Assembly (NCBI GenBank): GCA_028281825.1
Contig: JANQJC010000087.1
Location: 1-64,000, forward strand
Source of the DNA: Flavobacteriales bacterium
GTDB lineage: Bacteria > Bacteroidota > Bacteroidia > JANQJC01
Direction: 5' to 3'
Length of the DNA stretch: 64,000 nucleotides
Position 1 is the stretch's first letter; every line of letters starts with the position of its first letter. The position numbers and the translations under genes were made by a program. Under the pieces are notes generated by a model. That model worked only from the letters and a program-made list of their open reading frames with translations, was not told the DNA's origin and did not search any database. Shown piece by piece: positions 31,428 through 47,696 of the stretch.

Positions 31428-32762
31428 ATGTTAAAGAAGATACTTTCTTTTGGTGGTGTGGAAGCATTGGCAAAAGGCACCAACTGGCTTGCCCTTAGCC
31501 TTTTACCCATTCTTTTACCTGTAAATGAATATGCCAAAATTGGGCTTCTTGTTGCAGTTCAGGGGTTTTTAAACCTATTCTTTACAGCTGGGCAGGATAA
31601 GTTCATCTTCAGGTTTTATAAAGGACCAAAGAAAGAAAGGGTACACTTTAATATTCTCCTATTCCTATTCCTACTTGGGTTAACAGCTACTGTATTATGC
31701 GGGTCTTTTTTGTTGTTTAGCGGAAGGGCTGAAATCTTCAGTTTGGATCCAATTCTCGTATTTGGAATTATATGGGGAATGGTGCTTTTCTCAAGTAATA
31801 AAATCAGCCTATCGATTATTCGGCTGCGTTCCAACGTGAGGGAGTACGGTATCAATAGGTTGGTATATCAGTTTTCTCTCTTAATAATATTGTCCATAGT
31901 GGCTTATATCACTCGTATGAGTTTCTCATATGTAGTTGCGATGATTGGCGCTGCATTAATCATACTCAGTTTAGAGTATAGAGCTGGGCTGCTTAAACTA
32001 AAACCAGACTTCTCGCTTACAAAACGGTATCTCAAAATACTATTTCTGTGGGGATTGCCATTCATACTTCATTCGGCCTCAAAATCGGTTTTAATGTTTG
32101 TAGACCGCTTTTTGATAGAACAATATGGTGGTACCTATGATTTGGGTATTTATACTTTTGCCTATCAAATAGGGCAATCCATGTCCTTCCTTTTTTTCGC
32201 TCTTAACGTATATTTTGAGCCAATATATTACAAAGACAAAGGTGAAGGTATACTTACTCGATTCTTTCTTACCTCAAATACACTGGCAGCATTATTCCTT
32301 ATCGGAATTGTAGTGCTTCTTCCATTTGTAGTCACTCGTTTTTATCCTGCAGATTATATCAACTCACTTGATTATGTGCTGGGACTGGGGTGTTCATTTC
32401 TATTAAACCTATATTACATAGGCTATGCAAATAGATTGGTGAAACATAAGAAGGTTAAGTTTTTGGCAACTTCAACCTTTATAGCTGCCAGTACAAATCT
32501 TATTCTCAATTTTATATTGATACCCAAGCTAGGCATCAAAGGCGCCGTATTAACTAACTGGATTAGTTATGCCTTGTTGTCATATATATCTGGGTTCTTT
32601 TTCCGAAGAAGTATACTGCCAGATAAGCATCTAACTATAAGCCTTATAGTTACTGCTACACTATTGTTCGTGCCAATGAGTAACTTAGCAGCCTGTTTGA
32701 TACTGTTTGGGTATGTATCTATAAATGTCGCCGGTATCTATTATATGAGAAAAGCTAAATGA
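31428..32762 (+). CDS. Polysaccharide flippase (Wzx-like)
   Basis: A 444-residue protein almost wholly of membrane helices (about twelve), with the layout of the MOP-family flippases that turn undecaprenyl-linked repeat units to the periplasmic side. The N-terminal LSFGGVEALAKGTNWLALSLLPILL-type helix start and the SVLMFVDRFLIEQYGG segment are typical of Wzx/oligosaccharide flippase proteins. Its place between the export/kinase genes and a polymerase-like gene supports the role. Substrate specificity cannot be read from sequence. It overlaps the next gene by 4 bases (ATGA). Confidence 0.85.
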   Translation: MLKKILSFGGVEALAKGTNWLALSLLPILLPVNEYAKIGLLVAVQGFLNLFFTAGQDKFIFRFYKGPKKERVHFNILLFLFLLGLTATVLCGSFLLFSGRAEIFSLDPILVFGIIWGMVLFSSNKISLSIIRLRSNVREYGINRLVYQFSLLIILSIVAYITRMSFSYVVAMIGAALIILSLEYRAGLLKLKPDFSLTKRYLKILFLWGLPFILHSASKSVLMFVDRFLIEQYGGTYDLGIYTFAYQIGQSMSFLFFALNVYFEPIYYKDKGEGILTRFFLTSNTLAALFLIGIVVLLPFVVTRFYPADYINSLDYVLGLGCSFLLNLYYIGYANRLVKHKKVKFLATSTFIAASTNLILNFILIPKLGIKGAVLTNWISYALLSYISGFFFRRSILPDKHLTISLIVTATLLFVPMSNLAACLILFGYVSINVAGIYYMRKAK

Positions 32763-34144
32763 GACTAAAAACAAATAGGCTTATAATTAACATATTACTG
32801 GTGTTTTCAACATTATTGTTTTATGTCCATGGGGATAGTTACTTAGCCAAGTACGTTTTCATTCTGCAATTTTTTCTTTTCGCGCTATTTGGGCTCGTTT
32901 TTCCAAGAAAAATACTGTACTTTTTTTCACCCTCTTTTATTACCACAGCCTATATCTGCATTAATATGGCCATTGGCCTGTATGCATTCGAAAACGGGCT
33001 TATTTATAAACAGGTAATAGTTGCTTCTTATATCAATGACGAGGTTATACTTAGAGCCAGTTTAATGTTTTTTGTAGCCAACATTATCGTCTTCAATACC
33101 TTTAGGAATAGGATAAATAGTATAGATAGTGAAATGAGAAAGAAGGCTCACCAGTTTCAACTATCCAGAAACCAGGTTATTAAGTTCTTTATAATTATAC
33201 CTGTTCTGTTTGCGGTTGATATAGTCTCAGACAAGCTGGGCACCCAAGGTGGAATATTCACCATACCTGTTACGGTTTCTATACTTTATCTCTCTTATCT
33301 ATTGTCTCGTTCTCAAGAAAAGGGCCGGTGGATTTTTTACCCAATCATTATTCTCATCTCGCTTTTTCTTCAATTTGACTCTAAGAGAGAAGTGGTATTT
33401 CTTATTGGTGGTATCTTTATTATTGAGTCAATAAGTACTGTGCAGTTGCGCAGATTGAGTTCTACCCGGCTTTTTTTTACAGTTGTTGTTTTGGGTATAG
33501 CTGCCTTTTATCTCATTATAGCCATGTCAATTACCCGAGGCTTTGGGTATTATGGCGTGAAAAACCCGATTGAAGCACTCTCATACGTTGATGATTACAT
33601 ATCAGATGAGAATAATATACGTCTGGTGTTAAACAACATTGAAGCTACTACGGTATTTTTTCATTCTTATAACGCAATCGATATGTTTCTCACTAGAGAA
33701 GCACCAATGCTTTATGGAAAGACGTTCATTAAGATTGCATTCTTCCCCTTTCCTCGAAGTGTGCTGCCCATTAAGCCAAATAGCATCATTCATGAATATA
33801 CATATAGATATGACCCCTATTTAAGAGAAGAAGGTAGGTCAGTTGCGGTTTCATTATATCCAGAGTACTTTTGGAACTTCGATTGGTTGGGAGTCCTTGT
33901 ATTGTTTGGGGTGTTCTTTCTATTCAATGAAGCGTATTTCTATGGTATTAACTCCTATTTTGAGGGCAACATACAAATAGCAGTGATGGGAGTGTTTCTT
34001 ATAGCCTACTTTGTGGGGTACTTGCGAGGTTCAGGTATTGACCTATTCTTGCTATACCTGCTCATTGCATTCGGAACTATAAAACTACTCTACTACTTAA
34101 TAGGATCAAACAAGCTATATATTGAAGAAGATACCAATACTTGA
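32759..34144 (+). CDS. Oligosaccharide repeat-unit polymerase (Wzy-like)
   Basis: A 461-residue membrane protein with about twelve hydrophobic segments and one long hydrophilic loop (about residues 255-380, containing REAPMLYGKTF and LPIKPNSIIHEYTY). That layout is typical of Wzy polymerases, which are poorly conserved in sequence; the loop motifs recall the O-antigen polymerase family in which an ARG or PRS-type motif precedes a conserved ENE/NSI region. The assignment rests on topology and on position next to the flippase. It would join repeat units in the periplasm. It overlaps the acyltransferase gene by 23 bases. Confidence 0.7.
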   Translation: MRLKTNRLIINILLVFSTLLFYVHGDSYLAKYVFILQFFLFALFGLVFPRKILYFFSPSFITTAYICINMAIGLYAFENGLIYKQVIVASYINDEVILRASLMFFVANIIVFNTFRNRINSIDSEMRKKAHQFQLSRNQVIKFFIIIPVLFAVDIVSDKLGTQGGIFTIPVTVSILYLSYLLSRSQEKGRWIFYPIIILISLFLQFDSKREVVFLIGGIFIIESISTVQLRRLSSTRLFFTVVVLGIAAFYLIIAMSITRGFGYYGVKNPIEALSYVDDYISDENNIRLVLNNIEATTVFFHSYNAIDMFLTREAPMLYGKTFIKIAFFPFPRSVLPIKPNSIIHEYTYRYDPYLREEGRSVAVSLYPEYFWNFDWLGVLVLFGVFFLFNEAYFYGINSYFEGNIQIAVMGVFLIAYFVGYLRGSGIDLFLLYLLIAFGTIKLLYYLIGSNKLYIEEDTNT

Positions 34145-35174
34145 TGGATTGAGGGGAGTAGCGGCCTTATTGGTACTTTGGGCGCACTTTCCGCTTATCG
34201 CCGGTAGTAGTATATTCAAATACTTCCACTTAGCCTCAAAAGCCACTTATGCAGGATATGTGGGTGTGGATATTTTTTTCGCACTAAGCGGATTTTTGAT
34301 TACCCGGATTTTGCTGTTTGAAAAGCAGGAGGGGAAACTAAGTTTCAAGGTGTTTTACATCAAAAGGGCACTTAGGATATTTCCGATATACTACATCTGT
34401 ATTCTTTTAGTTGGGCTCATTATATCCTGGGACAAGATGGGGTGGTGCGCTGCATACTTATCAAATTATTACTTTGCCTTTGACCTTACCGAAAACTCCA
34501 TGCGTCACACTTGGTCATTGTGTGTAGAAGAGCACTACTACCTGTTTTGGCCTTTGTTGATATCATTCACTAATCAAAAAACGGCAAAGACATTAATTGG
34601 ATGGGTAATACCAGCAATAGCTATTATATCAGCAGCTTTATCGCTTGTATACTTAGACAATGGCCCTGATTTAGTGAATAAAGCATCACACCATAGGATG
34701 TTGACACTTGCCTTAGGCTCATTTATTGCGTATAAGGAAAATAGTATATTACAAATGAAGAGACAATATCTGTTGATTGCGGTTACACTAAGCGGCTGCA
34801 TTTTAGTGTTTGGACGCTTGGCCTTATCACAGGACGCCAAAGTTTTTGCACGTTTTTTGAGCTCAAGTGTATTTAGTGTCTCTCTGCTTATACTGCTTAT
34901 ACAAAGCTCAATGAGTGATGGGAAAAATGTGGTGAAAGGCTTTTTGAACAGCGGTATAATGAAGTTTTTTGGTAAGATAAGTTATGGTTTGTACCTGTTT
35001 CACCAACCTGTGTTGTACTATTTGGGGGTATCGCATATGCATGAAGATGTCAAAGTTTCATTACCATATGCAATTTTACTATTAGTTTTGTGCGTCGGTA
35101 TCCCAACGGTCTCTTTTTACGTAGTAGAAAACCCGTTGTTGAAACTGAAGAAAAAATATTCAGTAATTAAGTAA
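34122..35174 (+). CDS. Acyltransferase 3 (OafA-like) membrane protein
   Basis: A 350-residue integral membrane acyltransferase. The family start motif PILDGLRGVAALLVLWAHFP lies at the very N-terminus, and TWSLCVEEHYYLFWP is the second hallmark; about ten membrane helices are visible. Such proteins O-acetylate or otherwise acylate surface polysaccharides. The start is a TTG at 34122, inside the end of the polymerase gene; it is needed to keep the LDGLRG motif. The stop codon and the next start overlap (TAATG). The likely role is acetylation of the polymer from this locus. Confidence 0.88.
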   Translation: MKKIPILDGLRGVAALLVLWAHFPLIAGSSIFKYFHLASKATYAGYVGVDIFFALSGFLITRILLFEKQEGKLSFKVFYIKRALRIFPIYYICILLVGLIISWDKMGWCAAYLSNYYFAFDLTENSMRHTWSLCVEEHYYLFWPLLISFTNQKTAKTLIGWVIPAIAIISAALSLVYLDNGPDLVNKASHHRMLTLALGSFIAYKENSILQMKRQYLLIAVTLSGCILVFGRLALSQDAKVFARFLSSSVFSVSLLILLIQSSMSDGKNVVKGFLNSGIMKFFGKISYGLYLFHQPVLYYLGVSHMHEDVKVSLPYAILLLVLCVGIPTVSFYVVENPLLKLKKKYSVIK

Positions 35175-36328
35175 TGAAGTCAGTACTATACGTACTCCCC
35201 AGAAGGGATTATTTTTCAAGAGGTGACCGAGGTAGTGTTACCCATGCAATGGGTATAATAAATGGCCTTACGGCCAATGACATTAAGGTATTTGTAGTAG
35301 CAGGCGATGGCTTTGAAAAATATAAGCCTAGACTTGTGAATGGGAATAACGTAGAGTATATTGAACATAAAGCAACCTCATTTAGGTGGCTTTGGTTAGT
35401 TGGTTTGTATTTCAAGGTAATGAGCACTATTGCCACTCATAAAATACCAATCGTCATCATTCGGTATAGCATCTCGCTTCCATTGTTCCAGTATATTATC
35501 AATTTGGGAGTTAGGGCCAGAGGTAAGAAAATGGTTCTAGAAGTCAATTCCTTGCTTGCCAATTATTCTGACTTAAAGGGCATTAAGCGATTCTTCAAGC
35601 CCTTATTAATACTTGTCGAGCCAATGATTGTCAAGTCTTTCAAATACTATTACGTAGTAAGCAAAGGCTTGGCTGATTTTATGATTAATAATGACTATAA
35701 GGGTAAAATGATAATAGTGCCCAATGCATCAGATATTGTGCCTAAAGCAGTTAAGGAACGCAAAGAAAGCCAGGTGCGTATGGTGTATCTGGGCAGCCTT
35801 AAATTCTACTATGATTTGTACCAGCTTATAGATGCTTTTGTTGAGCTGAAGGAAAGAGATTTTGAGGGTATATCAGAGCTTGCCTTTTATGGTCACGGCC
35901 CTGAGACAAAGGAGTTGAAAATATACGCCAGAGGAAGAAAAGATATAGTTTTTTATGGTGAGTATGACAACTCTAAGGTAAGTGAGCTAATCAATCCCAC
36001 CAGCGACATTTTAATGCTTCCTTACAAAGATGGTACTGTAGCAAACTTTGGTTCTCCAACCAAGTTGTTTGAGTATATGGCCCTTAAGGCTCCGGTAATC
36101 TCTTCAAACGTTGGGCAATTGGATGAGTTTGTGGTTGATGGAGTTAATGGTTTAAAGTATCATTATTACGACAAACAAGAGCTAATGGACAAGATTGAGC
36201 AATTAGCTCAAAATCCTGAATTGCGGGCCAAGTTGGCACATAATGCGTATAATGACCTTATGACCAAACATACCTGGAAATCAAGGATGGAGTATTTATA
36301 CACCCAAATTATAGCGGTGGATGCTTAA
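35174..36328 (+). CDS. Glycosyltransferase family 4 protein
   Basis: A 384-residue GT-B glycosyltransferase. The C-terminal donor-binding part has VYLGSLKFYYDLYQLIDAF and the GT4 signature PTKLFEYMALKAPVISSN, and ends in a family-typical helix. Donor and acceptor cannot be assigned. Translational coupling to the acyltransferase is indicated by the 1-base overlap. It would add one sugar of the repeat unit on the cytoplasmic face of the membrane. Confidence 0.9.
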   Translation: MKSVLYVLPRRDYFSRGDRGSVTHAMGIINGLTANDIKVFVVAGDGFEKYKPRLVNGNNVEYIEHKATSFRWLWLVGLYFKVMSTIATHKIPIVIIRYSISLPLFQYIINLGVRARGKKMVLEVNSLLANYSDLKGIKRFFKPLLILVEPMIVKSFKYYYVVSKGLADFMINNDYKGKMIIVPNASDIVPKAVKERKESQVRMVYLGSLKFYYDLYQLIDAFVELKERDFEGISELAFYGHGPETKELKIYARGRKDIVFYGEYDNSKVSELINPTSDILMLPYKDGTVANFGSPTKLFEYMALKAPVISSNVGQLDEFVVDGVNGLKYHYYDKQELMDKIEQLAQNPELRAKLAHNAYNDLMTKHTWKSRMEYLYTQIIAVDA

Positions 36329-37271
36329 TGAACTTTTATACTATTACCACCGACAAAAATGGATGCTTCGCCCTGACTTGCTGTACCTGAGTAAGTTAGA
36401 GAATATAATGATTGATAGGCCAATCTTTATAGTTGGCTTGCAAGGTGGCGGTGGAACATTTTTGAGCCGTATTTTTCGCAGGATAGAGGGAGTAGTAACA
36501 CTTTCTGGCAATCACAAGTACTTTACAGGTGCAGATGAAATGCAATCAGCACTAGGACCTTTTTTGCCACAACAGTATTCAGGGATATTACACAAATACC
36601 CCAAAAGCAATAATTTTGGCCACAGGCGGGGCTGGAGTTATGCTTGTGATGAATTGCTTCCTTTTCATAAATATGATGAGTGGGACTATAAGGAAGACCA
36701 GGGTGCTGGCTTTAGGCATGCTATTAAAGTTTGTATCAAGATAAATGGCAAAAGTGGCAAACCACATAGGTTTATTGATAAGTCACAGAGTTATGCACTC
36801 AAAATACCTATCATGCGAAAGGCATTGGAAGGCTCATTACCTAAGTTTATAGGCATTGTGCGTAATCCTTATGTGATGTGCTGGAGAGCTGCCAGCATGA
36901 AAACAGCCTTAGCGTTTGAGAAACAAAATATTGAGCACAAGCTCTTGATAGCTACCCAGCATTGGAATAATACGGTGAGGTGTTTAATTGAGAATGAGGG
37001 TCAGGCAGACTTTAGACTTTACAAAGTGGAAGAGATACTAGAACAGTTTGAAGAGAAGGTATATGAAATTGCCCGGTTTGCTGAGGTGGATTTAAAGGAG
37101 GAACATTTTCCAAAGGCTTCGGATGTATTGCCAGCAGGTTCTAAAAGACAAGAGCGTTGGTATCCTGTTCAAAGGGAAATAAATAATAAATATTTAGAGA
37201 AAGTTCCTGCAAAGGCAAAGGAGATTATCTTGAATCAATGCGGAGATTATATAGAGCGTTTTGGCTACTAA
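36321..37271 (+). CDS. Sulfotransferase-like protein (first of two)
   Basis: A 316-residue protein with the two PAPS-contact signatures of sulfotransferases: a 5'-phosphosulfate loop IVGLQGGGGTFLSRIF (about 36-51) and a 3'-phosphate-binding stretch FIGIVRNPYVMCWRAAS (about 176-192). The loop is Gly-rich where the usual form is GxxRSGTS, so it belongs to a divergent subfamily. Between the two lies an unusual stretch rich in His and aromatic residues (KYPKSNNFGHRRGWSYACDE). There is no signal peptide, in line with cytoplasmic use of PAPS. It overlaps the preceding and following genes by 8 and at most 11 bases. A role in sulfating the polysaccharide repeat unit is inferred. Confidence 0.75.
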   Translation: MLNELLYYYHRQKWMLRPDLLYLSKLENIMIDRPIFIVGLQGGGGTFLSRIFRRIEGVVTLSGNHKYFTGADEMQSALGPFLPQQYSGILHKYPKSNNFGHRRGWSYACDELLPFHKYDEWDYKEDQGAGFRHAIKVCIKINGKSGKPHRFIDKSQSYALKIPIMRKALEGSLPKFIGIVRNPYVMCWRAASMKTALAFEKQNIEHKLLIATQHWNNTVRCLIENEGQADFRLYKVEEILEQFEEKVYEIARFAEVDLKEEHFPKASDVLPAGSKRQERWYPVQREINNKYLEKVPAKAKEIILNQCGDYIERFGY

Positions 37272-37275
37272 GGAG

Positions 37276-38199
37276 ATGAAAGACGTGATATTTATCGTAG
37301 GTGTGGGCCGTTCAGGCACTAGCCTTTTACAAAGTTTCCTAAATGCCCATCCTGACATCGCTTTTACTCCTGAAACTCAATTCGTAAGAAAGTACTTAGC
37401 GAAGGCATCCCTCAAAGCCAAGATAGAAGCTAATTCTGCATCTTTTTTTATTGACCTGCTCAAGCAGGATAAAGAATTTGCTCGTGCTAGTACCCAGCCT
37501 GAGAAGATTATCTCAGGGAGAAAGGTAAATGTGGTGGAGACTTATAAGGCCTTTTTAAATAACTACGCATCGGCAAAAAACAAAACTATAGCCGGAGACA
37601 AAGACCCACGCAATCTTGACCTAATAAAAACACTTTATCAGTACTTTCCTCAAGGAAAAGTAATTCACATTATTCGCGACCCAAGAGATGTTGTCTCTTC
37701 AAGGATGAAAGCTGATTGGTCCAGCAAAACACCTTTTATACTTCATCCTTTGATGTATAACGCTCAATTCCATCGCGGAAGAAAAATAGGGAAGAAATGT
37801 TATAAGGAGAACTATTTTGAGATAAACTACGAGACACTTATCTCTGACCCTGAAGATTCTTTGAAAGGGATTTGTGACTTTTTTGGGGTCAACTTTGAAT
37901 CAGCCATGCTCAACTTCTCTGAGTCATCAAAAGAGTTGGTTTCAGAAGCTGAAATGCAGTGGAAGAAAGAAACATTAGGCCCATTACTTTCAAAAAACAG
38001 TGGCAAGTGGCGTAAAACACTTAGCCCAAGTCAGATATACTACATTCAAACGCTTTGTAGCTCAGTTCTAGAAGAGTTTGGTTATGAACCAGATAAAATT
38101 TCCCCTTCAATAATAACTCGCATTTCGGCAGTGAGCATGAGGATTGTTTCGGTAATTTTTTCAGTTTTGTATCCACTAAGGATAAAATACTTGCTGTAA
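37276..38199 (+). CDS. Sulfotransferase (second of two)
   Basis: A clear member of the sulfotransferase family. The PAPS 5' loop FIVGVGRSGTSLLQSFLNAH sits near the N-terminus and the 3'-phosphate site IIRDPRDVVSSRM about 125 residues later. Length is 307 residues from the ATG at 37276. A frame open from a TTG at 37261 would overlap the preceding gene; the ATG directly begins MKDVIFIVGVG, the usual spacing to the loop. A C-terminal hydrophobic stretch (SMRIVSVIFSVLYPL) could associate with the membrane. Its target is probably a sugar of the polymer made here, since the neighbours are glycan genes; a small-molecule target cannot be excluded. Confidence 0.85.
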   Translation: MKDVIFIVGVGRSGTSLLQSFLNAHPDIAFTPETQFVRKYLAKASLKAKIEANSASFFIDLLKQDKEFARASTQPEKIISGRKVNVVETYKAFLNNYASAKNKTIAGDKDPRNLDLIKTLYQYFPQGKVIHIIRDPRDVVSSRMKADWSSKTPFILHPLMYNAQFHRGRKIGKKCYKENYFEINYETLISDPEDSLKGICDFFGVNFESAMLNFSESSKELVSEAEMQWKKETLGPLLSKNSGKWRKTLSPSQIYYIQTLCSSVLEEFGYEPDKISPSIITRISAVSMRIVSVIFSVLYPLRIKYLL

Positions 38200-39243
38200 A
38201 TGTTTTCTGCTGTAAGAGGTGTACGACCAGTTTTTCTCGAAAAAGGAGACCTATACCTTTCTAAAGGTTTTAGAATAGCCAAGGCTAACACAGATCATCC
38301 TGAGAAGTATGATATTATTTCCAGGTATGGAGGGTTGAAAGAAAGCCTTATATCTACTTCGCCTTTGGCAACTCGTATGTTGAGAGAAGGGATACATTTC
38401 TTCCTCCCTATGCCTAATGGACATCTTTTGATGGTGAGAAATAAACTTCTATTTAAGAAAGGAGGCGGCAATTACAAAGTTGTAATGGATATTTTTAAGG
38501 GAAGCAGACCCCTTAATATTTGTAAGGCAAGCAATGGCAGCCTTTATTTTGGAGAATACTTTTCTAACTCAGATAGAGGCGAAGTGAAGATATTTACATC
38601 CATTGACGGTGAAAATTGGGATGCGGCTTACACTTTTAAGTCGGGCACTATTCGTCATGTACATGGTATTTATGAAGATAGTTTCCGTAACGGCTTATGG
38701 GTTTTGACTGGAGATTCAGATGATGAGTCGGCGCTATGGTTCACTAATGATGGCTTCAAGACATTAACCCCATTGGGTAGGGGCAGCCAAAGAGCAAGGG
38801 CTGTTGGGATTATCCCTACTGAAAAAGGTATCATAGTTCCTATGGATAGCCCCCATCAGGTGAATTATATCCAGCTTTTTGAGCCTGAAACAGAGAAATT
38901 TACGGATTTAGCGCAGATAGGTGGTAGTGCTTTCCACGCCCAAAAATATGGGGATATCCACTTAGTGACCACCGTTACAGAACCTAGTCCAGTGAATATC
39001 ACCAATGCAGCTTACTTATATGGAAGCTTGGATGGTGAAAACTGGAAGTTGATAGAAGCTTTCAGGAGGGATATTTTCCCAGTTAAATACCAGAATTACA
39101 CCCGCTATTCTGAGATAGAGCTTTTGCCTTTTGATGAGAATACTTCAAAGTATATTTTTGCATATGCAAGGGCAGTCGCGAAGTATGACAACTGTATGCT
39201 TTGCTTTGATAAAGAAAAACTGCGCGCCCAAATAACAGGCTAA
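38200..39243 (+). CDS. Asp-box (BNR) beta-propeller-like protein
   Basis: A 347-residue protein that I cannot name. It carries Asp-box turns of the BNR/sialidase type: TSIDGENWDAAYTF, FTNDGFKTLTPLG and GSLDGENWKLIEAF, each fitting S/T-x-D-x-G-x-x-W or a near form. This predicts a beta-propeller. It has no signal peptide or membrane helix, so it appears cytoplasmic. The gene starts directly after the second sulfotransferase stop and its stop overlaps the start of the heparinase-like gene (TAATG), so it is tightly coupled to glycan modification. It may bind or act on the nascent glycan; no catalytic residues are recognisable. Confidence 0.6.
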   Translation: MFSAVRGVRPVFLEKGDLYLSKGFRIAKANTDHPEKYDIISRYGGLKESLISTSPLATRMLREGIHFFLPMPNGHLLMVRNKLLFKKGGGNYKVVMDIFKGSRPLNICKASNGSLYFGEYFSNSDRGEVKIFTSIDGENWDAAYTFKSGTIRHVHGIYEDSFRNGLWVLTGDSDDESALWFTNDGFKTLTPLGRGSQRARAVGIIPTEKGIIVPMDSPHQVNYIQLFEPETEKFTDLAQIGGSAFHAQKYGDIHLVTTVTEPSPVNITNAAYLYGSLDGENWKLIEAFRRDIFPVKYQNYTRYSEIELLPFDENTSKYIFAYARAVAKYDNCMLCFDKEKLRAQITG

Positions 39244-40793
39244 TGAAAAAACTACTGCTGTATTACAACACCCTTAAATACCTGCGGTGGCAGCAAGTGT
39301 TTTACAAACTGAAATACACGCTATTCAAACCTTCCAAAAAAATAAGCCCTCCTTCTAGCATTCAAACACATTTTGTGAAGGGTGATTTCTTGCCATTCAA
39401 TGGTGCCAGCGCAGATGGACAAACTTTTCAAATACTCAATAAAGAGGCAAAGTTTGATGACAAAATTAATTGGGACTACTCAGAAAACGGTAAGCTTTGG
39501 ACATATAATCTGAATTATTTTGACTACCTGAACAGCCCTGAATTAAGTATAGAACTTGGGCTAAAACTGATTGCAGACTACTGCACTTCAACTACAAAAA
39601 ATGGCAATGAGCCTTATCCAACTTCACTCAGGGGGATTAATTGGATTAAATTTATATCCCAGCACAAGATTGAGGACGGAACCATCAATAAACGATTGTA
39701 CGTTGACTACACGAGGCTTTGCCAACGTCCAGAGTATCACATCATGGGTAATCACTTATTGGAGAATGGAATTTCATTGCTGTTCGGAGCCTTCTTTTTC
39801 AAGGATGGCAAGTTCTTTTCCAAAGCCAATGAGATAATAACCAATGAATTAAAGGAAGAAATCCTGCAAGATGGCGGGCATTATGAGTTAAGTCCCATGT
39901 ACCATTCTATAATCTTGCAACGATTACTTGATTGCGTAGTACTCTTAAAGAACAATCAAGTATTTGAAACACAAGATAGTTTGCTAATTCTAGTAAGAGA
40001 CAAGGTGGGTAAAATGATATCGTGGTTACAAAAAGTGACCTTTTCAAATGGAGATATCCCTCTTGTGAATGATGCAGCTATGGGAATGGCTCCCATAGCA
40101 AAAGAGCTACTACACTTCGGAGAAAGACTGAAGATAAAATCAATTGTACTTCCCTTAAATGATAGTGGCTATAGAAAGTTAAACTCAGAAGAATTAGAAG
40201 TTTTGATTGACGTGGGTCAAATTGGCCCCGACTATATTCCAGGTCATGCTCATGCAGATACATTTAATTTCATCCTTTACCATCAAAGTAGACCTATTAT
40301 AGTTGATACTGGTGTTTCAACTTACAATATTGGCCCACAGAGAGATTTGGAAAGAAGCACGTCAGCACATAACACAGTGGTTATGAAAAACCAAGATAGT
40401 TCAGAAGTGTGGGCTGGTTTTAGAGTAGCTAAAAGGGCTAAGACCAAAATACTAGCTGACACCCCAAGTAAAGTAGTGGCCACTCATGATGGTTACTCAA
40501 GATTTGGAATAACTCATCTGCGTGAGTTTGAGATTACTACTGAAACATTTACTGTTAAAGATGATATTGGTAAAGATAACGGGATATCTTATTTACACTT
40601 TAGTCATGATATAAACCCTGAGTTGAAAGAAGAGAAAATAATAGCAGGTAGTGTAGAGATTGAGATACCTAATGTTGAAAAGATTGAAATTCAGCCTTAC
40701 ATGCAAGGTTTGGAGTTCAACAAACAAGTAGAAGCAAAAAAAGCCGTAATCTTTTTCAAAGGGCAGATAACTATTACCTTTGCGCCGAAATGA
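39243..40793 (+). CDS. Heparinase II/III-family protein without signal peptide
   Basis: A 516-residue protein of the heparinase II/III-like polysaccharide lyase superfamily. An alpha/alpha-toroid part (about 60-300) carries Asn170-His171 in HIMGNHLLENG and Tyr214/Tyr220-His221 in GGHYELSPMYH. A beta-sheet part carries GHAHADTFNF (His335, His337, Asp339), then a TSAHNTVVM block. These are the expected catalytic and metal-site motifs. Lyases of this family are normally exported, yet the N-terminus (MKKLLLYYNTLKYLRWQQVF) is basic and amphipathic with no signal peptide. Related folds include dermatan sulfate epimerase, so a uronyl C5-epimerase or an intracellular lyase are both possible. Coupled by a 4-base overlap to the PL6-like gene. 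Confidence 0.82.
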   Translation: MKKLLLYYNTLKYLRWQQVFYKLKYTLFKPSKKISPPSSIQTHFVKGDFLPFNGASADGQTFQILNKEAKFDDKINWDYSENGKLWTYNLNYFDYLNSPELSIELGLKLIADYCTSTTKNGNEPYPTSLRGINWIKFISQHKIEDGTINKRLYVDYTRLCQRPEYHIMGNHLLENGISLLFGAFFFKDGKFFSKANEIITNELKEEILQDGGHYELSPMYHSIILQRLLDCVVLLKNNQVFETQDSLLILVRDKVGKMISWLQKVTFSNGDIPLVNDAAMGMAPIAKELLHFGERLKIKSIVLPLNDSGYRKLNSEELEVLIDVGQIGPDYIPGHAHADTFNFILYHQSRPIIVDTGVSTYNIGPQRDLERSTSAHNTVVMKNQDSSEVWAGFRVAKRAKTKILADTPSKVVATHDGYSRFGITHLREFEITTETFTVKDDIGKDNGISYLHFSHDINPELKEEKIIAGSVEIEIPNVEKIEIQPYMQGLEFNKQVEAKKAVIFFKGQITITFAPK

Positions 40794-42214
40794 GAAATGC
40801 TTCTTGGTTAGCGCTTTTTGTGATGTCCTTTTTCTTGTCCTGTGGGGGAAGTACAACTCCAGTTGGTGACGGAAAAGGATTGGTGCAAAGTGAGGAGACA
40901 GAAGAGAAACTTACTAAAGAGGAAAGCACCGAACAACAAACCCCGAATATAGAAGAAGCTAAGCCCCAAGGTACTATGAGGTTGCCAAGTGATACCATTT
41001 TTTTGGAGGATGGTATCATAGATGGATATGAACTCAAAATCACAAAAAGCGGAAGCGAAGAAAGACCACTGGTGCTAAGTGCAAGGCATCCAGGTAAAAC
41101 AGTGATAACAGGTAACGTGAGGATTGAAATTTCAGGGTCTTACGTTCATGTTGTTGACCTTATTTTTAAGAATGTTCAATCGGTTGGAAAATATGTTGAT
41201 GTTATCAAGTTCACGGGCAATAGGAACAAACTAAGTAATTGTATCATATACAATACAGACAACTTTAAGAGTGAAAAAACCTATTACTGGGTTACTATTG
41301 ATGGAAAACGTAATGAAGTAAGAGGCAATTCATTTGTTGGAAAAAGCAATAAAGGGCCGCTGGTATATGTAGTTGCCGAAGACGCCAGAAATGGACATCA
41401 CGATATTTCCCAAAACCTTTTTGCAAGGATAAAACCATTGGGTGAGAATGGACTTTCGACAATACGTATCGGACTGAAATCTACAGAACCTGTAAGTTCA
41501 TTTACTACTGTAATGGGCAACGTTTTCCATAACTGTGACGGCGAAATTGAACTGATTAGCAGTAAAGCTAGCAATAACAGCTTTATAAATAACCTGGTTT
41601 ATGAGTCAAGGGGTGGATTGACCCTGCGTTGGGGTAATGATTGCAAAGTGGATGGCAACCAGTTTATATCCAAGAAAAATACCTCTATTGGGGTTCGGGT
41701 GGCAGGTAGTGGACATGAAATAAAAAATAACACTTTCAAGTTAGTGGGAGGCCCAAATGCTGCCGCCATTGTTTTGATGACAGGAAGCAAAAATACTGAA
41801 TGCGGATATCAACCTGCGAGAGATATCAGTATCCATGACAACGAATTCCATAATAATTCTGATTGGAAGATATTAGAGCAAGTGAATTGTGATGCAGGGC
41901 CTCAGTTTTTAGCTAAGGATAACTTTAAATTCAAGAATGGTCAACCTAAAGGTAAGGGCAGCGACTACTCCGTTGAAAGAAAGGTGGTGAGTACTAAGAG
42001 AAAGGGCAATAGCAAAATCTTGAAGGAAATTTATGTGATGAAGGCTCTTGAAGGTGAAGGAGAAAAGGAGAGCACCCCAAAAGTACAAATGCCAGATTTA
42101 AGCATAAGAACCAGGCTAGAGAGTAATGAAGGGTTTATTACTAGTTGGGTGCGCGCTTCTCACAGGATTAATAATGCGAAAGTTGGCTCAACTATAAAAG
42201 TTTCTAGCTTATAA
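40790..42214 (+). CDS. PL6-like (chondroitinase B/alginate lyase family) lipoprotein
   Basis: A 474-residue lipoprotein (lipobox FFLSC, Cys18) followed by an acidic linker and a parallel beta-helix of polysaccharide lyase family 6 type. The family core is visible: GEIELISSKASNN and ESRGGLTLRWGN, giving the catalytic pair Lys259 and Arg280 with the same 21-residue spacing as in chondroitinase B. The Arg-His-Gly seen in most members is Arg-Trp281-Gly here, so substrate contacts may differ. About 80 C-terminal residues after the helix are basic and unassigned. Anchored on the envelope, it could trim, release or remodel the polymer made by this locus (inference). Confidence 0.78.
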   Translation: MRNASWLALFVMSFFLSCGGSTTPVGDGKGLVQSEETEEKLTKEESTEQQTPNIEEAKPQGTMRLPSDTIFLEDGIIDGYELKITKSGSEERPLVLSARHPGKTVITGNVRIEISGSYVHVVDLIFKNVQSVGKYVDVIKFTGNRNKLSNCIIYNTDNFKSEKTYYWVTIDGKRNEVRGNSFVGKSNKGPLVYVVAEDARNGHHDISQNLFARIKPLGENGLSTIRIGLKSTEPVSSFTTVMGNVFHNCDGEIELISSKASNNSFINNLVYESRGGLTLRWGNDCKVDGNQFISKKNTSIGVRVAGSGHEIKNNTFKLVGGPNAAAIVLMTGSKNTECGYQPARDISIHDNEFHNNSDWKILEQVNCDAGPQFLAKDNFKFKNGQPKGKGSDYSVERKVVSTKRKGNSKILKEIYVMKALEGEGEKESTPKVQMPDLSIRTRLESNEGFITSWVRASHRINNAKVGSTIKVSSL

Positions 42215-42229
42215 TAGCAGACAGACGAT

Positions 42230-43438
42230 ATGCGGATTTTATATTTCTACCAGTTTTTTTCAACGCCCAAGGGCTCGTGGGGCACTCGTGTTTATGAGTT
42301 TGCTAAAGAGTGGGTGGAAAAGGGTCACGAAGTTACGGTGGTTACCAGTGTATTTGTGAAGTCTGATTTAAAGGCCGAGAAACTGATTGAAACCCAATAT
42401 TTCGACGATATTAAAGTAAAGGTGATTAACATCACCATGGACAACCGGCAAAGTATATTGAAAAGGATATGGACCTTTATGGCCTATGCCTTTCTTTCTT
42501 GTTGGTATGCCTTAACACTCAAAGCCGATGTTGTTGTAGCTTCTTCGGGGCCGATTACGGTTGGATTGCCAGGATTGGTCGCAAGATACTTGAGAGGTAG
42601 AAAATTGGTTTTTGAGGTAAGAGACCTTTGGCCAGAAGGGGCTATAGAATTAGGTGTAATTAAAAACCCAATCATCAAATCACTGTCACTTTGGTTTGAG
42701 AAAACATGTTATAGGGCTTCAGAACATGTCATTTGCCTTTCACCTGGAATGAAAACCCACATTGAAACCAAACATATAGGGGTGAAAGCAACTAGCGTAA
42801 CCAATGCAGCTAATGTTGAACTTTTCTCAACGTCACAGCCATTCCCAAAAGATGAAAAAGCTCTACAACCAAAGAAATATGCCATTTATACAGGTAATAT
42901 CGGAGAAGTGAATAATAGCTACTGGCTCTATAATGCAGCTGTTAAATTGAAAAAACTGGGTAGAAACGATATTAAAATTGTGCTGGTGGGCGAAGGGCAG
43001 CAGAGGATAGAATTACAAGAGTTAGCCAAGCAAAATGGTATAGACAATTTTATCCATAAAGGCCTAATGCCAAAAGAGGACTTGATACCTTATATACAAC
43101 ATGCAATGGTTTCAATGGTACCACTCAAAGGAACTCCCGTTTTGGATACTTCATCTCCGAACAAGCTATTTGAATCAATAGCAGCTGGTATTCCAGTTAT
43201 TCAAAATACCCAAGGCTGGATAAAAGATTTTCTGGAGGAGCACAAGATTGGCTATACCTTAAACCCTAATGACCCATTGCAATTGGCCGAGAAACTTATT
43301 TGGGTGGATGAAAACCCTGAAGAAATGAAGAGTATGGGAGAAGTAGCAGCTGAAGTGGCAAAAAAAAACTTTGATAAAACATACCTAGCTGATAAAATGT
43401 TGAATTGCCTTGAATCTGTTGCTAATGGCAAGAAATAG
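42230..43438 (+). CDS. Glycosyltransferase family 4 protein (WbuB-like)
   Basis: A 402-residue GT-B enzyme. The N-terminal domain opens MRILYFYQFFSTPKGSWGTR and contains FEVRDLWPEGAIELGV, a stretch typical of WbuB-like GT4 enzymes. The donor domain has YTGNIGEVN, VGEGQQRIELQELA and SPNKLFESIAAGIPVI. WbuB-like enzymes often add the second sugar to the lipid carrier, commonly an N-acetylated amino sugar; the donor here is unproven, though UDP-ManNAcA is made by the same operon. It is separated from the PL6-like gene by 15 bases. Confidence 0.9.
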   Translation: MRILYFYQFFSTPKGSWGTRVYEFAKEWVEKGHEVTVVTSVFVKSDLKAEKLIETQYFDDIKVKVINITMDNRQSILKRIWTFMAYAFLSCWYALTLKADVVVASSGPITVGLPGLVARYLRGRKLVFEVRDLWPEGAIELGVIKNPIIKSLSLWFEKTCYRASEHVICLSPGMKTHIETKHIGVKATSVTNAANVELFSTSQPFPKDEKALQPKKYAIYTGNIGEVNNSYWLYNAAVKLKKLGRNDIKIVLVGEGQQRIELQELAKQNGIDNFIHKGLMPKEDLIPYIQHAMVSMVPLKGTPVLDTSSPNKLFESIAAGIPVIQNTQGWIKDFLEEHKIGYTLNPNDPLQLAEKLIWVDENPEEMKSMGEVAAEVAKKNFDKTYLADKMLNCLESVANGKK

Positions 43439-43523: not shown

Positions 43524-44945
43524 ATGGGAGCACCTAACATAAATAACTCCACTTCTTCTGCTTTTTATATCAGTAAATCTGAAAGAAAAAGATTGCTGAT
43601 GCTATTCGACTTGGTGTTACTAGTGGTGCTGTGCTTCACATTGCTTTTTGGCCTTAGAAATGGTGAGTTTAAATATTTGCCCAATCTCCTTTTATTAAAC
43701 ATCATCCTCTATTATGTGATTGCTCGCCTAACGGGCTTGTTTGATGACAGGTATTACGCATCCTGGAAAGCGATACTAGTTCGTTCTTTCATCACGTTTC
43801 TAATCCATTTTACCATGTTTTATGGTATTATGGGTATAGATTTCGATATCTTTAAAATGAAGGCCTTTGGAATGGCCATGGCACCCTTTCTCGGGTTTTA
43901 CATCATCAGTTATTTCATCAAGCTAGCATATAGGGCTTTAGTATTCTTAAAGCTTAAAAAGAACATTTTAATAGTGGGGGCCGGCAAATCAGGTGTTTTG
44001 ATAGCTGATTGCTTGATGGAAAACAAAAGGGTACAAAAAGACAGAACTTTCAATATTGTAGGGTTTATTGATGATAATAAAGAGGAAGACTACACCTATA
44101 GGGGAATAAAAGTGATTGGAAAAACGAATGATATAGACCATATCGTTGAAAAACATGGTGTGAAGGAAGTAGTTTTCGCAATCCAGAATACCAAAGGTGT
44201 ATCTGATGAGCTATTCAATAAACTACTGCTCTTCATTGAAAGTGGGATTGAGGTAAGTAATACCTTCAATAAGTATGAGGAATTGATGCAAAGGCTGCCA
44301 ATTGAGAAAGTGGGTAAAGACTTTTACCATTTCTTTCCTTTTGCCAAGACAAATAGCAGTATTTTTTATCTATCTATCAGCAGGATAATAGAGATAGTGT
44401 TAAGCATTATAGGCTTGTTTATCATGTTTTTGTTTATCCCACCTATCTTTATCGCTAACCTGATTTTTGCACCAGGCCCATTGTTCTATTCTCAGAAAAG
44501 GGTTGGTTTGTACGGCAAGGAGTTTAACTTGAGCAAGTTCCGCTCTATGGTAGTAGATGCTGAAAAAGGGGGTGCTAAGTGGGCAGATAAGAATGATAGC
44601 CGGACTACTAAAATCGGGGCGCTTTTGCGCAAAACCAGAATTGATGAATTGCCCCAATTTTTTGCAGTACTCAAAGGAGATATGGGACTAATTGGCCCTA
44701 GGCCAGAAAGAAAAGTTTTTGTTGACCAATTAAAAAAAGAGATACCTTTTTTTGAGGCCAGACACTTTATTAAGCCTGGGATTACTGGTTGGGCCCAAGT
44801 AATGTACAAATACGGAAACTCTACCAATGACAGCCTTATCAAGTTAAAGTATGACTTGTACTACATCAAAAATCGTTCTATAGCGCTTGATATCCAGATA
44901 ATTATAAAAACGATTTTCACGGTAATCAATTACAAAGGGCAGTAA
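43524..44945 (+). CDS. Undecaprenyl-phosphate sugar phosphotransferase (priming transferase)
   Basis: A 473-residue membrane enzyme of the WcaJ/WbaP polyprenyl glycosylphosphotransferase type that starts repeat-unit synthesis by moving a sugar-1-phosphate to undecaprenyl phosphate. Four N-terminal membrane helices (about 20-145) precede a Rossmann-like CoA-binding domain (KKNILIVGAGKSGVLIADCL). A re-entrant or membrane helix follows, then the catalytic bacterial sugar transferase domain (FSQKRVGLYGKEF has the motif SQKRVG; KFRSMVVDAE; the Asp-Glu dyad in RIDELPQF near 374; GLIGPRPE). Length and order are standard. The transferred sugar is not predictable with confidence. Confidence 0.93.
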   Translation: MGAPNINNSTSSAFYISKSERKRLLMLFDLVLLVVLCFTLLFGLRNGEFKYLPNLLLLNIILYYVIARLTGLFDDRYYASWKAILVRSFITFLIHFTMFYGIMGIDFDIFKMKAFGMAMAPFLGFYIISYFIKLAYRALVFLKLKKNILIVGAGKSGVLIADCLMENKRVQKDRTFNIVGFIDDNKEEDYTYRGIKVIGKTNDIDHIVEKHGVKEVVFAIQNTKGVSDELFNKLLLFIESGIEVSNTFNKYEELMQRLPIEKVGKDFYHFFPFAKTNSSIFYLSISRIIEIVLSIIGLFIMFLFIPPIFIANLIFAPGPLFYSQKRVGLYGKEFNLSKFRSMVVDAEKGGAKWADKNDSRTTKIGALLRKTRIDELPQFFAVLKGDMGLIGPRPERKVFVDQLKKEIPFFEARHFIKPGITGWAQVMYKYGNSTNDSLIKLKYDLYYIKNRSIALDIQIIIKTIFTVINYKGQ

Positions 44946-44946
44946 C

Positions 44947-45996
44947 TTAATTTACTTTGTAAAAGCTTTTGTACCAATCCACAAAATTTCCGACACCCTG
45001 TTTGAGGTCGTAACTTGGGGAGTAACCAAAATCTTCTTTCAAGGCATCAACGTTAGCATAAGTGATGGGAACATCACCAGGCTGAATAGGCATATAGTTA
45101 ATGTTCGCCTTCTTTCCCAGCTTTTCTTCAATGGCATGAATAAAATCCATTAAAGGAACAGGATTGTTATTTCCTATGTTGTAGACCTTATAAGGCGCCA
45201 CTGAGCTTGCTGGGTTTGGAGCGTCTCCCTTCCATGAAGAATTGCTTTGTGCTGGCCTTATCACTACACGGCTAATACCTTCTGTTATATCATCCACATA
45301 GGTGAAATCACGTTTCATATCCCCGTGATTGAATACGTCGATGGTTTCGTCGTTCAAAATAGCCTTGGTAAACAAGAAAATAGCCATGTCAGGCCTTCCC
45401 CAAGGCCCGTACACTACAAAAAAACGCAAACCCGTAACTGGTATTTGATATAAATGGCTGTAAGCATGGGCCATCAGTTCATTGCTCTTTTTGCTAGCTG
45501 CATAAAGGGAAATAGGATGGTCTACATTATCAGAAACAGAAAAGGGGATGCTCTCATTCAACCCGTAAACGCTGGAACTGCTAGCATATACCAAGTGCTT
45601 AACAGGATACTGTCTGCAAGCTTCCAAAACATTGAAGAAGCCATTCACATTATTACCCATGTAGGCATTCGGTTTAATCACTGAATACCTAACACCAGCC
45701 TGAGCTGCCAAATGAACTACATAATCAAATTGGTAAGTTTTAAAAAGGTTAAGCAAGCCATCGTGGTCTTGGATGTCGAGCTTTACAAAAGTGAAATTGG
45801 TTTTACCCTCAATGGAATGATTTTCAACGGGATTGGTGTCAACTCCTAGCTCTTTCAAACGAGCCAATTTCAACGCAGGGTCATAGTAATCATTCAGGTT
45901 ATCGATACCCACAACTTCATGACCATCATCTAGCAATCTGGCTGCCGTATGCATCCCAATAAATCCTGCACAACCTGTTACCAGAACTTTTGCCAC
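44947..45996 (-). CDS. NAD-dependent epimerase, probable UDP-glucuronate 4-epimerase
   Basis: An extended short-chain dehydrogenase of 349 residues. It opens VAKVLVTGCAGFIGMHTAARL with the NAD motif, has ASSSSVYG, the catalytic YAASKK (YxxxK) and RFFVVYGPWGRPDMA, a block characteristic of UDP-glucuronate 4-epimerases (CapI/GAE type). It would interconvert UDP-GlcA and UDP-GalA. The frame extends up to an ATG at 46098, but that would add 34 residues without family support and overlap the divergent gene at 46092; the GTG at 45996 is therefore chosen. It is convergent with the priming transferase, one base apart, and likely feeds the same polymer. No UDP-glucose dehydrogenase is in the window. 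Confidence 0.87.
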   Translation of the reverse strand: MAKVLVTGCAGFIGMHTAARLLDDGHEVVGIDNLNDYYDPALKLARLKELGVDTNPVENHSIEGKTNFTFVKLDIQDHDGLLNLFKTYQFDYVVHLAAQAGVRYSVIKPNAYMGNNVNGFFNVLEACRQYPVKHLVYASSSSVYGLNESIPFSVSDNVDHPISLYAASKKSNELMAHAYSHLYQIPVTGLRFFVVYGPWGRPDMAIFLFTKAILNDETIDVFNHGDMKRDFTYVDDITEGISRVVIRPAQSNSSWKGDAPNPASSVAPYKVYNIGNNNPVPLMDFIHAIEEKLGKKANINYMPIQPGDVPITYANVDALKEDFGYSPSYDLKQGVGNFVDWYKSFYKVN

Positions 45997-46076
45997 TTGA
46001 TAGAATTGACCTGAGGTGATTAATTGCCCAAAAGTAAGCCTTTTAGTGAGATAGCAAATTAATCGTTTCTCTTGAT

Positions 46077-46084
46077 TACTTTTG
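46077..46084 (+). promoter_or_regulatory. -7 promoter box very close to the first RemB/Wzi-like gene
   Basis: TACTTTTG is an exact TAnnTTTG match ending 7 bases before the ATG at 46092. If used, the transcript would be nearly leaderless. A clear -33 box is not seen. Confidence 0.4.
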
Positions 46085-46091
46085 TAATTGG

Positions 46092-47696
46092 ATGGCAAGG
46101 CTATACCTAATTATTTTATTGGTTGTATTTGTTGGTTCTGTTTCAAGTGCTCAACAGATGTATTTGCCATTTGTACATACCCAATACTACACCTTTGAGG
46201 ACTCACTTTACCGTTTGGGCACAGATTTTCATACTTCCATCAAACCATATCGAGAGGCTCAAGTGAGGGAATATACCAATCCTGATAGCTTGGATAGGTT
46301 TGGATATAATAATGGAAGATTTGCTAATACGTGGTTTGGGCGTAGGATATTTAAGCAGCACGCCGTATGGCTCGACTCAGGCAAGTTTCAATTGTTTCTT
46401 GACCCGGCTTTTAATCTTGAAACGGGGCAAGACAGGGCAACCGATAGTAGCGCCTATATAAACACAAGAGGGGTTCAGATAGGCGGTAACATTGGGAAAA
46501 AAGTGTCTTTCTATTCCGCATTTTATGAGAACCAGTCTAAGTATGCACCCTATGTAAATGATTATGTGAATGAAAATGATGTGGTGCCTGGACAGGGCAG
46601 GGTAAAGGAGTTTAAGGGCAATGCCTTTGATTTTTCTAATGCTGAAGGTTATATCTCATACGCTCCCTCTAGCCATTTTGCCTTCCAATTTGGACATGGT
46701 AAAAATTTTATAGGGGACGGCTATCGCTCATTGCTTTTATCAGACTATGGCTTCAACTATCCCTTTTTTAAGGTAACGGCCAACTTCTGGAAAATACAGT
46801 ACACGAGTATTTGGTCTTCTTTTTTGGACATTAGAAACAGACCTGTAGTCTATGAAGCGGGCTTTCCAAAAAAATGGGCTCATTTCAGTTACTTAAGTTA
46901 CAACATTCACAAGCGAGTAAGTCTAGGCCTCTTTGAAGGAATTATTTGGCGAGACAGATATCCAAGTGGCAGTTCAGCGCTTAACTTAGGTTTTGCAAAC
47001 CCGGTGATATTTACTCATTCCATTTTTAGTGGCTTAGACAGGAGTAATAATGCTGTGATAGGTGCCAACCTAAAAGTGAACGTTCTTAAAACCACTTGTA
47101 TTTATGGGCAATTGGTGGTAGATGATTTTAAGTTCGGAAAGCGCGGGAATGGTTACTACAAGAATAGGACAGGGTATCAGGTTGGCTTCAAAAGCTACAA
47201 TCTGTTTAAAATAGACAACCTGTTTGTGCAGGGCGAATATAATACAGTAAGACCCTATACTTATTCCCATACTAATTCAGTTCAGGCTTATGGGCATTTT
47301 AATGAACCACTAGCGCATCCATTCGGAGCAAACTTTAGGGAGATGGTTGGAATTTTGGCTTATCGATTTAGGGACATATCTGTTCAAATAAAAACAGTGA
47401 GCGCTACTATTGGAATGGACATGACTGGATTTAATTTTGGGCATGACATTTTTCATGAAAATACAGACTTGGAGGGTACTGTAGGGTCAAGTGGTAATTA
47501 CACGGGTCAGGGGGCTGAAATGAAGGTGGTGGTTAATGATGTGAGACTAGGTTACCTAATTAATCCTGTGAGCAATCTGAACTTATTCCTCGGGTATACT
47601 GGCAGAAAAGCAACGCTTTCAGGCGTGGAGAGCAATACTTCATATGTGTATTTAGGTTTCAGGACTGATTTACGAAACTTCTATTACGATTTTTAA
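46092..47696 (+). CDS. RemB/Wzi-family outer-membrane protein (first paralogue)
   Basis: A 534-residue protein with a signal peptide (about residues 1-20, ending SVSSAQQ) and many alternating amphipathic strands rich in aromatic residues, as in outer-membrane beta-barrels. The central FQFGHGKNFIGDGYRSLLLSD segment (quoted in part: GHGKNFIGDGYRSLLLSD) and FNEPLAHPFGANFRE match the capsule assembly Wzi family, whose Bacteroidota members are often annotated as gliding motility protein RemB. It ends in DLRNFYYDF, with the terminal Phe usual for barrels. It could anchor or organise the surface polysaccharide, or take part in gliding. The stop overlaps the start of its paralogue (TAATG). Confidence 0.75.
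   Translation: MARLYLIILLVVFVGSVSSAQQMYLPFVHTQYYTFEDSLYRLGTDFHTSIKPYREAQVREYTNPDSLDRFGYNNGRFANTWFGRRIFKQHAVWLDSGKFQLFLDPAFNLETGQDRATDSSAYINTRGVQIGGNIGKKVSFYSAFYENQSKYAPYVNDYVNENDVVPGQGRVKEFKGNAFDFSNAEGYISYAPSSHFAFQFGHGKNFIGDGYRSLLLSDYGFNYPFFKVTANFWKIQYTSIWSSFLDIRNRPVVYEAGFPKKWAHFSYLSYNIHKRVSLGLFEGIIWRDRYPSGSSALNLGFANPVIFTHSIFSGLDRSNNAVIGANLKVNVLKTTCIYGQLVVDDFKFGKRGNGYYKNRTGYQVGFKSYNLFKIDNLFVQGEYNTVRPYTYSHTNSVQAYGHFNEPLAHPFGANFREMVGILAYRFRDISVQIKTVSATIGMDMTGFNFGHDIFHENTDLEGTVGSSGNYTGQGAEMKVVVNDVRLGYLINPVSNLNLFLGYTGRKATLSGVESNTSYVYLGFRTDLRNFYYDF

Follow-up and report, generated by a model that had tools for sequence, protein, structure and literature searches.

Why should a protein with the fold of a polysaccharide lyase, and without a signal peptide, be encoded inside an operon for polysaccharide biosynthesis? 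The question is raised by one gene in a 64,000-nucleotide stretch of DNA from a Flavobacteriales bacterium (assembly GCA_028281825.1, contig JANQJC010000087.1, positions 1 to 64,000; hereafter the window). The gene lies at 39243-40793 and its product, a heparinase II/III-fold protein, is called HEP here. A first-pass annotation of the window had asked whether HEP is a uronyl epimerase or an intracellular lyase. The observation itself is confirmed, namely the open reading frame (ORF), the absent signal, the coupling and the biosynthetic operon, and the interpretation is partly supported. A cytoplasmic biosynthetic role of HEP is very probable. With moderate confidence, we propose that HEP works in the cytoplasm, probably at the membrane surface, as a uronyl C5-epimerase of lipid-linked repeat units.

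A signal-less heparinase-fold protein coupled to biosynthetic genes

The HEP ORF (plus strand) codes for 516 amino acids (aa). Its ATG is contained in the TAATG that closes the preceding gene, and the gene on the 3' side begins 4 bases ahead of the HEP end; this start/stop overlap within a Wzx/Wzy operon bears out the earlier claim of translational coupling to biosynthetic genes. HEP matches PF07940 with 145.1 bits (cut-off 24) and PF16889 with 41.7 bits (cut-off 22), and the heparinase III (HepC) equivalogs NF045573 and NF045572 are not reached (42 versus 700 and 39.4 versus 600 bits). HEP is the single PF07940 protein of its source genome, which together with its biosynthetic neighbours rules out a degradative context.

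Just 10 open codons precede the HEP ATG (open frame of 526 aa). This is too short for a signal peptide ahead of the ATG, so an alternative start with such a signal is ruled out, and no cleavable signal is present at any start. The maximal N-terminal hydropathy (10-residue) of HEP is 0.63, compared with 2.2-3.0 in the secreted PF07940 proteins of the same class, most of which have clear hydrophobic leaders. The first-pass annotation was therefore right about the missing signal, and the trait extends to the relatives described below: the maximum stays under 2.2 in 96 of 97 HEP-clade proteins, the single exception having an uncertain start. According to the model and the alignment, two short helices carrying a conserved motif make up the first 40 residues of HEP. 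In 64 aligned members this segment has a net charge between +5 and +13 (median +9), whereas other 40-residue stretches have a mean of -0.8. The window's HEP carries these clade traits, the YxxTxKYLKxxQ motif and the absent signal, and its basic hairpin would suit a protein that touches the inner membrane from the cytoplasmic side.

The AlphaFold2 model of HEP (mean pLDDT 92.6, pTM 0.93) has a heparinase-type fold, whose closest solved counterparts in Foldseek are heparinase III of polysaccharide lyase family 12 (PL12), then PL33 and PL17. Heparinase III/HepC structures (PDB 4MMH, 5JMF, 4FNV) are matched with E values of 4e-20 to 5e-18 and TM scores of 0.56-0.66, normalised by query. The GNH, SPxYH, H..D and HNT motifs are common to both, at about 15% identity. 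HEP-clade proteins are shorter (515-560 aa), the position of HEP His337 is occupied by Gln in PL12, and HEP has no signal peptide and resides in a biosynthetic operon, in contrast to the secreted, degradative PL12 heparinase III. Dermatan sulfate epimerase, which the first-pass annotation had named as sharing fold and chemistry, is absent from the Foldseek matches (E up to 0.001) and from the profile sequence matches of HEP (E up to 1), so neither search supports HEP as a member of that group. The kinship holds in a wider sense, though not as the closest one: human DS-epi1 (EC 5.1.3.19), a proven C5 epimerase, has a related (alpha/alpha)n plus beta-sheet fold and a comparable His, Tyr, Tyr, HxH arrangement (PMC8006597). 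Unlike HEP at its proposed cytoplasmic site, DS-epi1 acts on a polymer in the Golgi.

Asn170, His171, Tyr220, His335, His337, Asp339, Tyr361 and His376 (HEP numbering) are identical in 52/52 clade sequences. The catalytic-type residues listed earlier are thus invariant, except for Tyr214, which is not conserved and is replaced by Phe in most homologues. Judged from the alignment, Tyr361, His376 and Asp355 are further conserved candidates for active-site or metal residues. The features of the gene are:

39243..40793, plus strand: HEP, very probably cytoplasmic heparinase II/III-fold protein, proposed uronyl C5-epimerase
39243..39323, plus strand: basic helical hairpin, residues 1-27, with the conserved motif YxxTxKYLKxxQIxYRxYY, standing in place of a signal peptide
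39750..39755, plus strand: Asn170-His171 (GNH), invariant, putative charge neutraliser pair, aligned with GNH of heparinase III
39900..39902, plus strand: Tyr220, invariant, putative catalytic base/acid
40245..40253, plus strand: His335-Ala-His337, putative second catalytic His and candidate metal ligand, both His invariant
40305..40307, plus strand: Asp355, candidate metal ligand, Asn in 11/52
40323..40325, plus strand: Tyr361, invariant, candidate second Tyr of a double-Tyr motif
40368..40370, plus strand: His376, invariant, candidate metal ligand

The HEP family and its gene partners

Full-length relatives of HEP, 37-46% identical, were found in 25 of 395 Bacteroidia genomes, the window's own included and two further matches from a distant clade excluded. 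A scan of 84,980 species, one genome each, yielded at least 572 relatives, the best among the matches listed belonging to Bacteroidota, Campylobacterota and others. Matches at E up to 1e-8 are present in 43 of 369 gammaproteobacterial genomes; about 20 are close (E below 1e-50) and the rest fall mostly into a longer sister clade. Relatives are also carried by alphaproteobacterial and haloarchaeal plasmids. In a FastTree tree of 73 sequences, 52 HEP proteins group together with moderate support (0.78), and secreted lyases as well as a second signal-less clade (about 650 aa, support 0.925) fall outside. HEP is accordingly not placed among the secreted degradative lyases, and on sequence grounds its family is a large, distinct clade of Wzx/Wzy-operon proteins. 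The 650-aa sister proteins (loci L055, L056, L241, L244, L245 and L247) share the heparinase fold and bear the motif RLRxMSxxE at the N-terminus; their clusters also encode a nucleotide-sugar dehydrogenase and a family 4 glycosyltransferase (GT4). They are possibly parallel epimerases for another uronic acid.

Gene partners were counted in 53 loci in which HEP is flanked by 7 kb or more on each side. Each of these loci encodes a GT4 belonging to a single family, in 49 of them directly 3' of HEP. The window has this GT4 at +2, with a gene of the PL6 family inserted in between, and the GT4-HEP pair is kept even in haloarchaea. The second partner, found in 43/53 loci, is either a true WecC or a bi-domain oxidoreductase (zinc alcohol dehydrogenase plus Gfo/Idh/MocA), which in Gammaproteobacteria usually lies just 5' of HEP. 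The genome of the window does not encode the bi-domain enzyme, only short generic homologues. WecB and WecC are encoded near HEP or adjoining it in the window, in an Escherichia coli IncC plasmid, in an E. coli galF-gnd locus, in Citrobacter, Parabacteroides and Campylobacterota, and in a gammaproteobacterium. Compact clusters of wecB-wecC and HEP-GT4 occur in the IS26-flanked segment of the IncC plasmid, at galF-gnd and in Citrobacter; the Parabacteroides cluster holds the bi-domain oxidoreductase in addition. Among 80 sampled Bacteroidia genomes, true WecC was found in 6 of 26 HEP-positive and in none of 54 HEP-negative ones, a difference (Fisher P 8e-4) that overstates independence because five of the six genomes belong to one taxonomic family.

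Two other gene contexts were observed. The conjugative IncC plasmid pCRE10.2 (locus L137) carries a small IS26-flanked wecB-wecC-flippase-wzy-glycosyltransferase-HEP-GT4 cluster, which is a mobile surface-polysaccharide cluster; five E. coli plasmids share an identical HEP gene. In two polysaccharide loci (L042, 6849-8963; L043, 5447-7612), a protein resembling glycoside hydrolase family 123 (about 705-720 aa) is encoded close 5' of HEP, another degradative-fold protein inside a biosynthesis operon.

Proposed epimerisation on lipid-linked units and the alternatives to it

Published work on probable relatives bears on function. Vibrio vulnificus YJ016 loses its capsule upon in-frame deletion of VV0358 (pfam07940), and likewise upon in-frame deletion of the adjoining "zinc-binding dehydrogenase" VV0357; VV0358 was proposed by the authors to be a lyase (PMC6037467). 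With its pfam07940 domain, its zinc-dehydrogenase neighbour, a position near the capsule cluster and its essential role in encapsulation, VV0358 resembles the HEP family. Pseudomonas aeruginosa PA14 offers a second case in HepP and ZbdP (PA14_23430/23420). HepP has heparinase II/III domains, and a study of 2017 found no export signal in it (PSORTb), a pellicle and biofilm defect in the hepP mutant, and described it as a virulence-related heparinase (PMC5732420). It is preceded by ZbdP, a zinc-dehydrogenase plus Gfo/Idh/MocA protein that has no counterpart in the window, and the pair was listed as ORF_11/ORF_10 of O-antigen biosynthesis (PMC1794565), the O-antigen repeat of PA14 being 4)-alpha-L-GalNAcA-(1-3)-alpha-D-QuiNAc-(1-3)-alpha-L-Rha (PMC2997053). 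The terms O-antigen, LPS and lipopolysaccharide are absent from the text of the 2017 paper (PMC5732420); the mutant phenotypes could be explained as the defects of an O-antigen mutant. A third case is the Vibrio cholerae polysaccharide VPS, which contains N-acetyl-L-gulosaminuronic acid (L-GulNAcA), the residue proposed here for the product of the window; its discoverers derived it from N-acetyl-D-mannosaminuronic acid (D-ManNAcA) by C5 inversion (PMC3901696), and the C5-epimerase was called unknown in a 2015 review (PMC4432689).

The mechanism that we propose would start with WecB and WecC making UDP-D-ManNAcA, from which a glycosyltransferase would load D-ManNAcA onto the growing undecaprenyl-diphosphate-linked repeat unit. 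HEP would then abstract the C5 proton through Tyr220 with His335/Tyr361, the enolate being held by Asn170/His171, and return of the proton to the opposite face of C5 would give L-GulNAcA, after which the repeat unit would be sulfated, flipped and polymerised. Relatives accompanied by the bi-domain oxidoreductase would add a second inversion, at C3, turning the same residue into N-acetyl-L-galactosaminuronic acid (L-GalNAcA). Inversion of D-manno at C5 gives L-gulo and inversion at C3 and C5 gives L-galacto, L-GalNAcA being the 3,5-epimer of D-ManNAcA. On this stereochemistry, WecB, WecC and HEP would yield L-GulNAcA, and together with a C3-acting oxidoreductase L-GalNAcA, matching PA14. Lyases and epimerases of the heparinase fold share the first half-reaction, abstraction of the C5 proton. 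PL6 enzymes act on polymers containing L-uronic acids, so the PL6 gene overlapping HEP in the window fits an L-uronate product.

For this reading speak the N-terminal motif, the basic N-terminus and the absent signal, all conserved across the clade, and the published capsule requirement of relatives recognised by annotation and gene order. The action on lipid-linked repeat units suggested by the first-pass annotation remains the best explanation of gene contexts and published mutants; its chemistry is what we infer from them, from the choice of epimerisation over elimination and of a lipid-linked over a nucleotide-linked substrate to the identity of the residue as ManNAcA and the part played by the oxidoreductase. 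The uronic acid substrate is kept and narrowed from a generic one to 2-acetamido-mannuronic acid as the likeliest residue, and conversion of D-ManNAcA to L-GulNAcA in the window is put forward tentatively.

Several points weigh against it. All nearest folds of HEP (PL12, PL33, PL17) are lyases, not DS-epi1, and epimerase activity is proven for no member of the clade. Many HEP loci are without WecC, and several long contigs have no sugar dehydrogenase near HEP, by which a requirement for such an enzyme beside every HEP is ruled out. A GT4 should retain the anomeric configuration, leading from alpha-D-ManNAcA to beta-L-GulNAcA. The alpha-L residues of PA14 and VPS do not follow simply from such a transfer, and the uronate-loading transferase may be another one. 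HepP and VV0358 are tied to the HEP clade by annotation and gene order only. Finally, lyase activity is suggested by a report that recombinant PA14 HepP cleared heparin in a protamine plate assay (PMC5732420).

The main rival to epimerisation is hence an intracellular lyase that cleaves aborted or stalled lipid-linked chains, or cytoplasmic uronate chains, for quality control or recycling. The nearest folds, lyases with the same residues, point this way together with the heparin clearing. A recycling enzyme should, however, be dispensable, yet deletion of VV0358 abolishes the capsule (PMC6037467). Moreover, Wzy polymerisation takes place in the periplasm, so that long chains are scarce in the cytoplasm, and the close association of HEP with one GT4 and one oxidoreductase would be left unexplained; we consider this alternative unlikely.

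Alternatively, HEP might invert C5 while the sugar is still bound to its nucleotide, turning UDP-ManNAcA into UDP-L-GulNAcA (or into UDP-L-GalNAcA where the oxidoreductase takes part), and the adjoining GT4 would transfer the finished L-sugar. Pairing of HEP with the GT4 and with sugar-nucleotide genes agrees with this scheme, and dedicated transferases for L-sugars are common. To our knowledge, however, the characterised members of the heparinase fold act on polymers or oligosaccharides, and the basic N-terminal hairpin suggests work at the membrane surface, making the scheme improbable.

That HEP has lost or changed its chemistry, serving as a scaffold or in another reaction on the repeat unit, would agree with activity being proven for no clade member, but is very improbable given the full invariance of the catalytic-type residues in 52 bacterial and archaeal sequences. 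Equally remote is non-classical export of HEP as a secreted lyase or virulence heparinase that degrades or trims its own capsule or host glycans: the description of HepP and the adjoining PL6 lipoprotein gene favour it, against the absent signal in 96/97 clade members, the basic N-terminus, the negative PSORTb result for HepP, the status of hepP as an O-antigen gene and a tree that separates the clade from secreted members.

As for precedents of the favoured epimerisation on lipid-linked units, Agl32 of Halobacterium salinarum is a uronyl C5-epimerase that acts on a lipid-linked oligosaccharide in archaeal N-glycosylation (PMC13308652). The reaction is like that proposed for HEP; the structure is different and the conversion is that of glucuronic to iduronic acid. 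The earlier claim of novelty for a Wzx/Wzy pathway is thus fair for the heparinase fold, and has to be qualified by this archaeal enzyme of other structure. No prior assignment of heparinase proteins as C5-epimerases in exopolysaccharide or O-antigen biosynthesis was found in the literature covered, which included few of the subscription papers. New here are the HEP family, its gene partners, the specific substrate proposal and the reinterpretation of HepP and VV0358.

The operon of the window and the possible polymers of the family

The genes around HEP are:

25859..26971, plus strand: WecB, UDP-GlcNAc 2-epimerase (equivalog, 505.6 bits, cut-off 210)
26978..28189, plus strand: WecC, UDP-ManNAc 6-dehydrogenase (equivalog, 549.5 bits, cut-off 459), predicted to supply UDP-D-ManNAcA
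28198..28968, plus strand: Wza-type polysaccharide export protein
28975..31389, plus strand: Wzc-type co-polymerase/tyrosine kinase
31428..32762, plus strand: Wzx-type flippase
32759..34144, plus strand: candidate Wzy polymerase, proposed from its position, without Pfam match
34122..35174, plus strand: acyltransferase family 3
35174..36328, plus strand: GT4 glycosyltransferase
36321..37271, plus strand: sulfotransferase
37261..38199, plus strand: sulfotransferase, with a homologue two genes 5' of HEP in locus L050
38200..39243, plus strand: beta-propeller protein (347 aa, no Pfam family), its gene coupled to that of HEP
40790..42214, plus strand: PL6 (chondroitinase B/alginate lyase) protein with lipoprotein-type signal, overlapping the HEP stop
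42230..43438, plus strand: GT4 glycosyltransferase, homologous to the GT4 that usually follows HEP directly
43524..44945, plus strand: polyprenyl glycosylphosphotransferase, predicted to initiate the repeat unit
44947..46098, minus strand: NDP-sugar epimerase/dehydratase (GalE-like)

These genes predict a sulfated polymer derived from ManNAcA and assembled by the Wzx/Wzy route. The order sulfotransferase-propeller-HEP-GT4 is repeated in locus L050. The propeller gene adjoins HEP in both of these loci and lies near it in four Campylobacterota loci; its protein has no visible signal peptide and retrieved generic propellers only in a fold search. The PL6 protein keeps the Lys and Arg of the ISxK and LxxR motifs and is probably an exported lyase that acts on the polymer made by the organism itself; the His of its LRH motif is replaced by Trp. 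Further on, 46092-47696 and 47696-49333 encode two paralogues in tandem (534 and 545 aa), which begin with leader-like segments, have no Pfam match and are perhaps outer-membrane barrels of capsule assembly. Homologues of the pair stand 3-4 genes after HEP in Flavobacteriales loci.

For the family as a whole we offer a broader proposal, itself tentative. Bacterial and archaeal HEP proteins, including HepP, VV0358 and possibly the C5-epimerase of VPS, may make L-GulNAcA from D-ManNAcA on undecaprenyl-linked units, and L-GalNAcA where the oxidoreductase takes part; the window itself may direct a sulfated L-guluronate-type polymer with turnover by PL6. Important bacteria have amino-uronic acids of L configuration in the polymers of their biofilms and capsules. 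If the proposal is true, hundreds of genes labelled as heparinases or alginate lyases would be misnamed, and two published virulence "heparinases" would become polysaccharide builders. Gene content would then partly predict the polymer, HEP with WecB/WecC indicating L-GulNAcA and HEP with the oxidoreductase L-GalNAcA.

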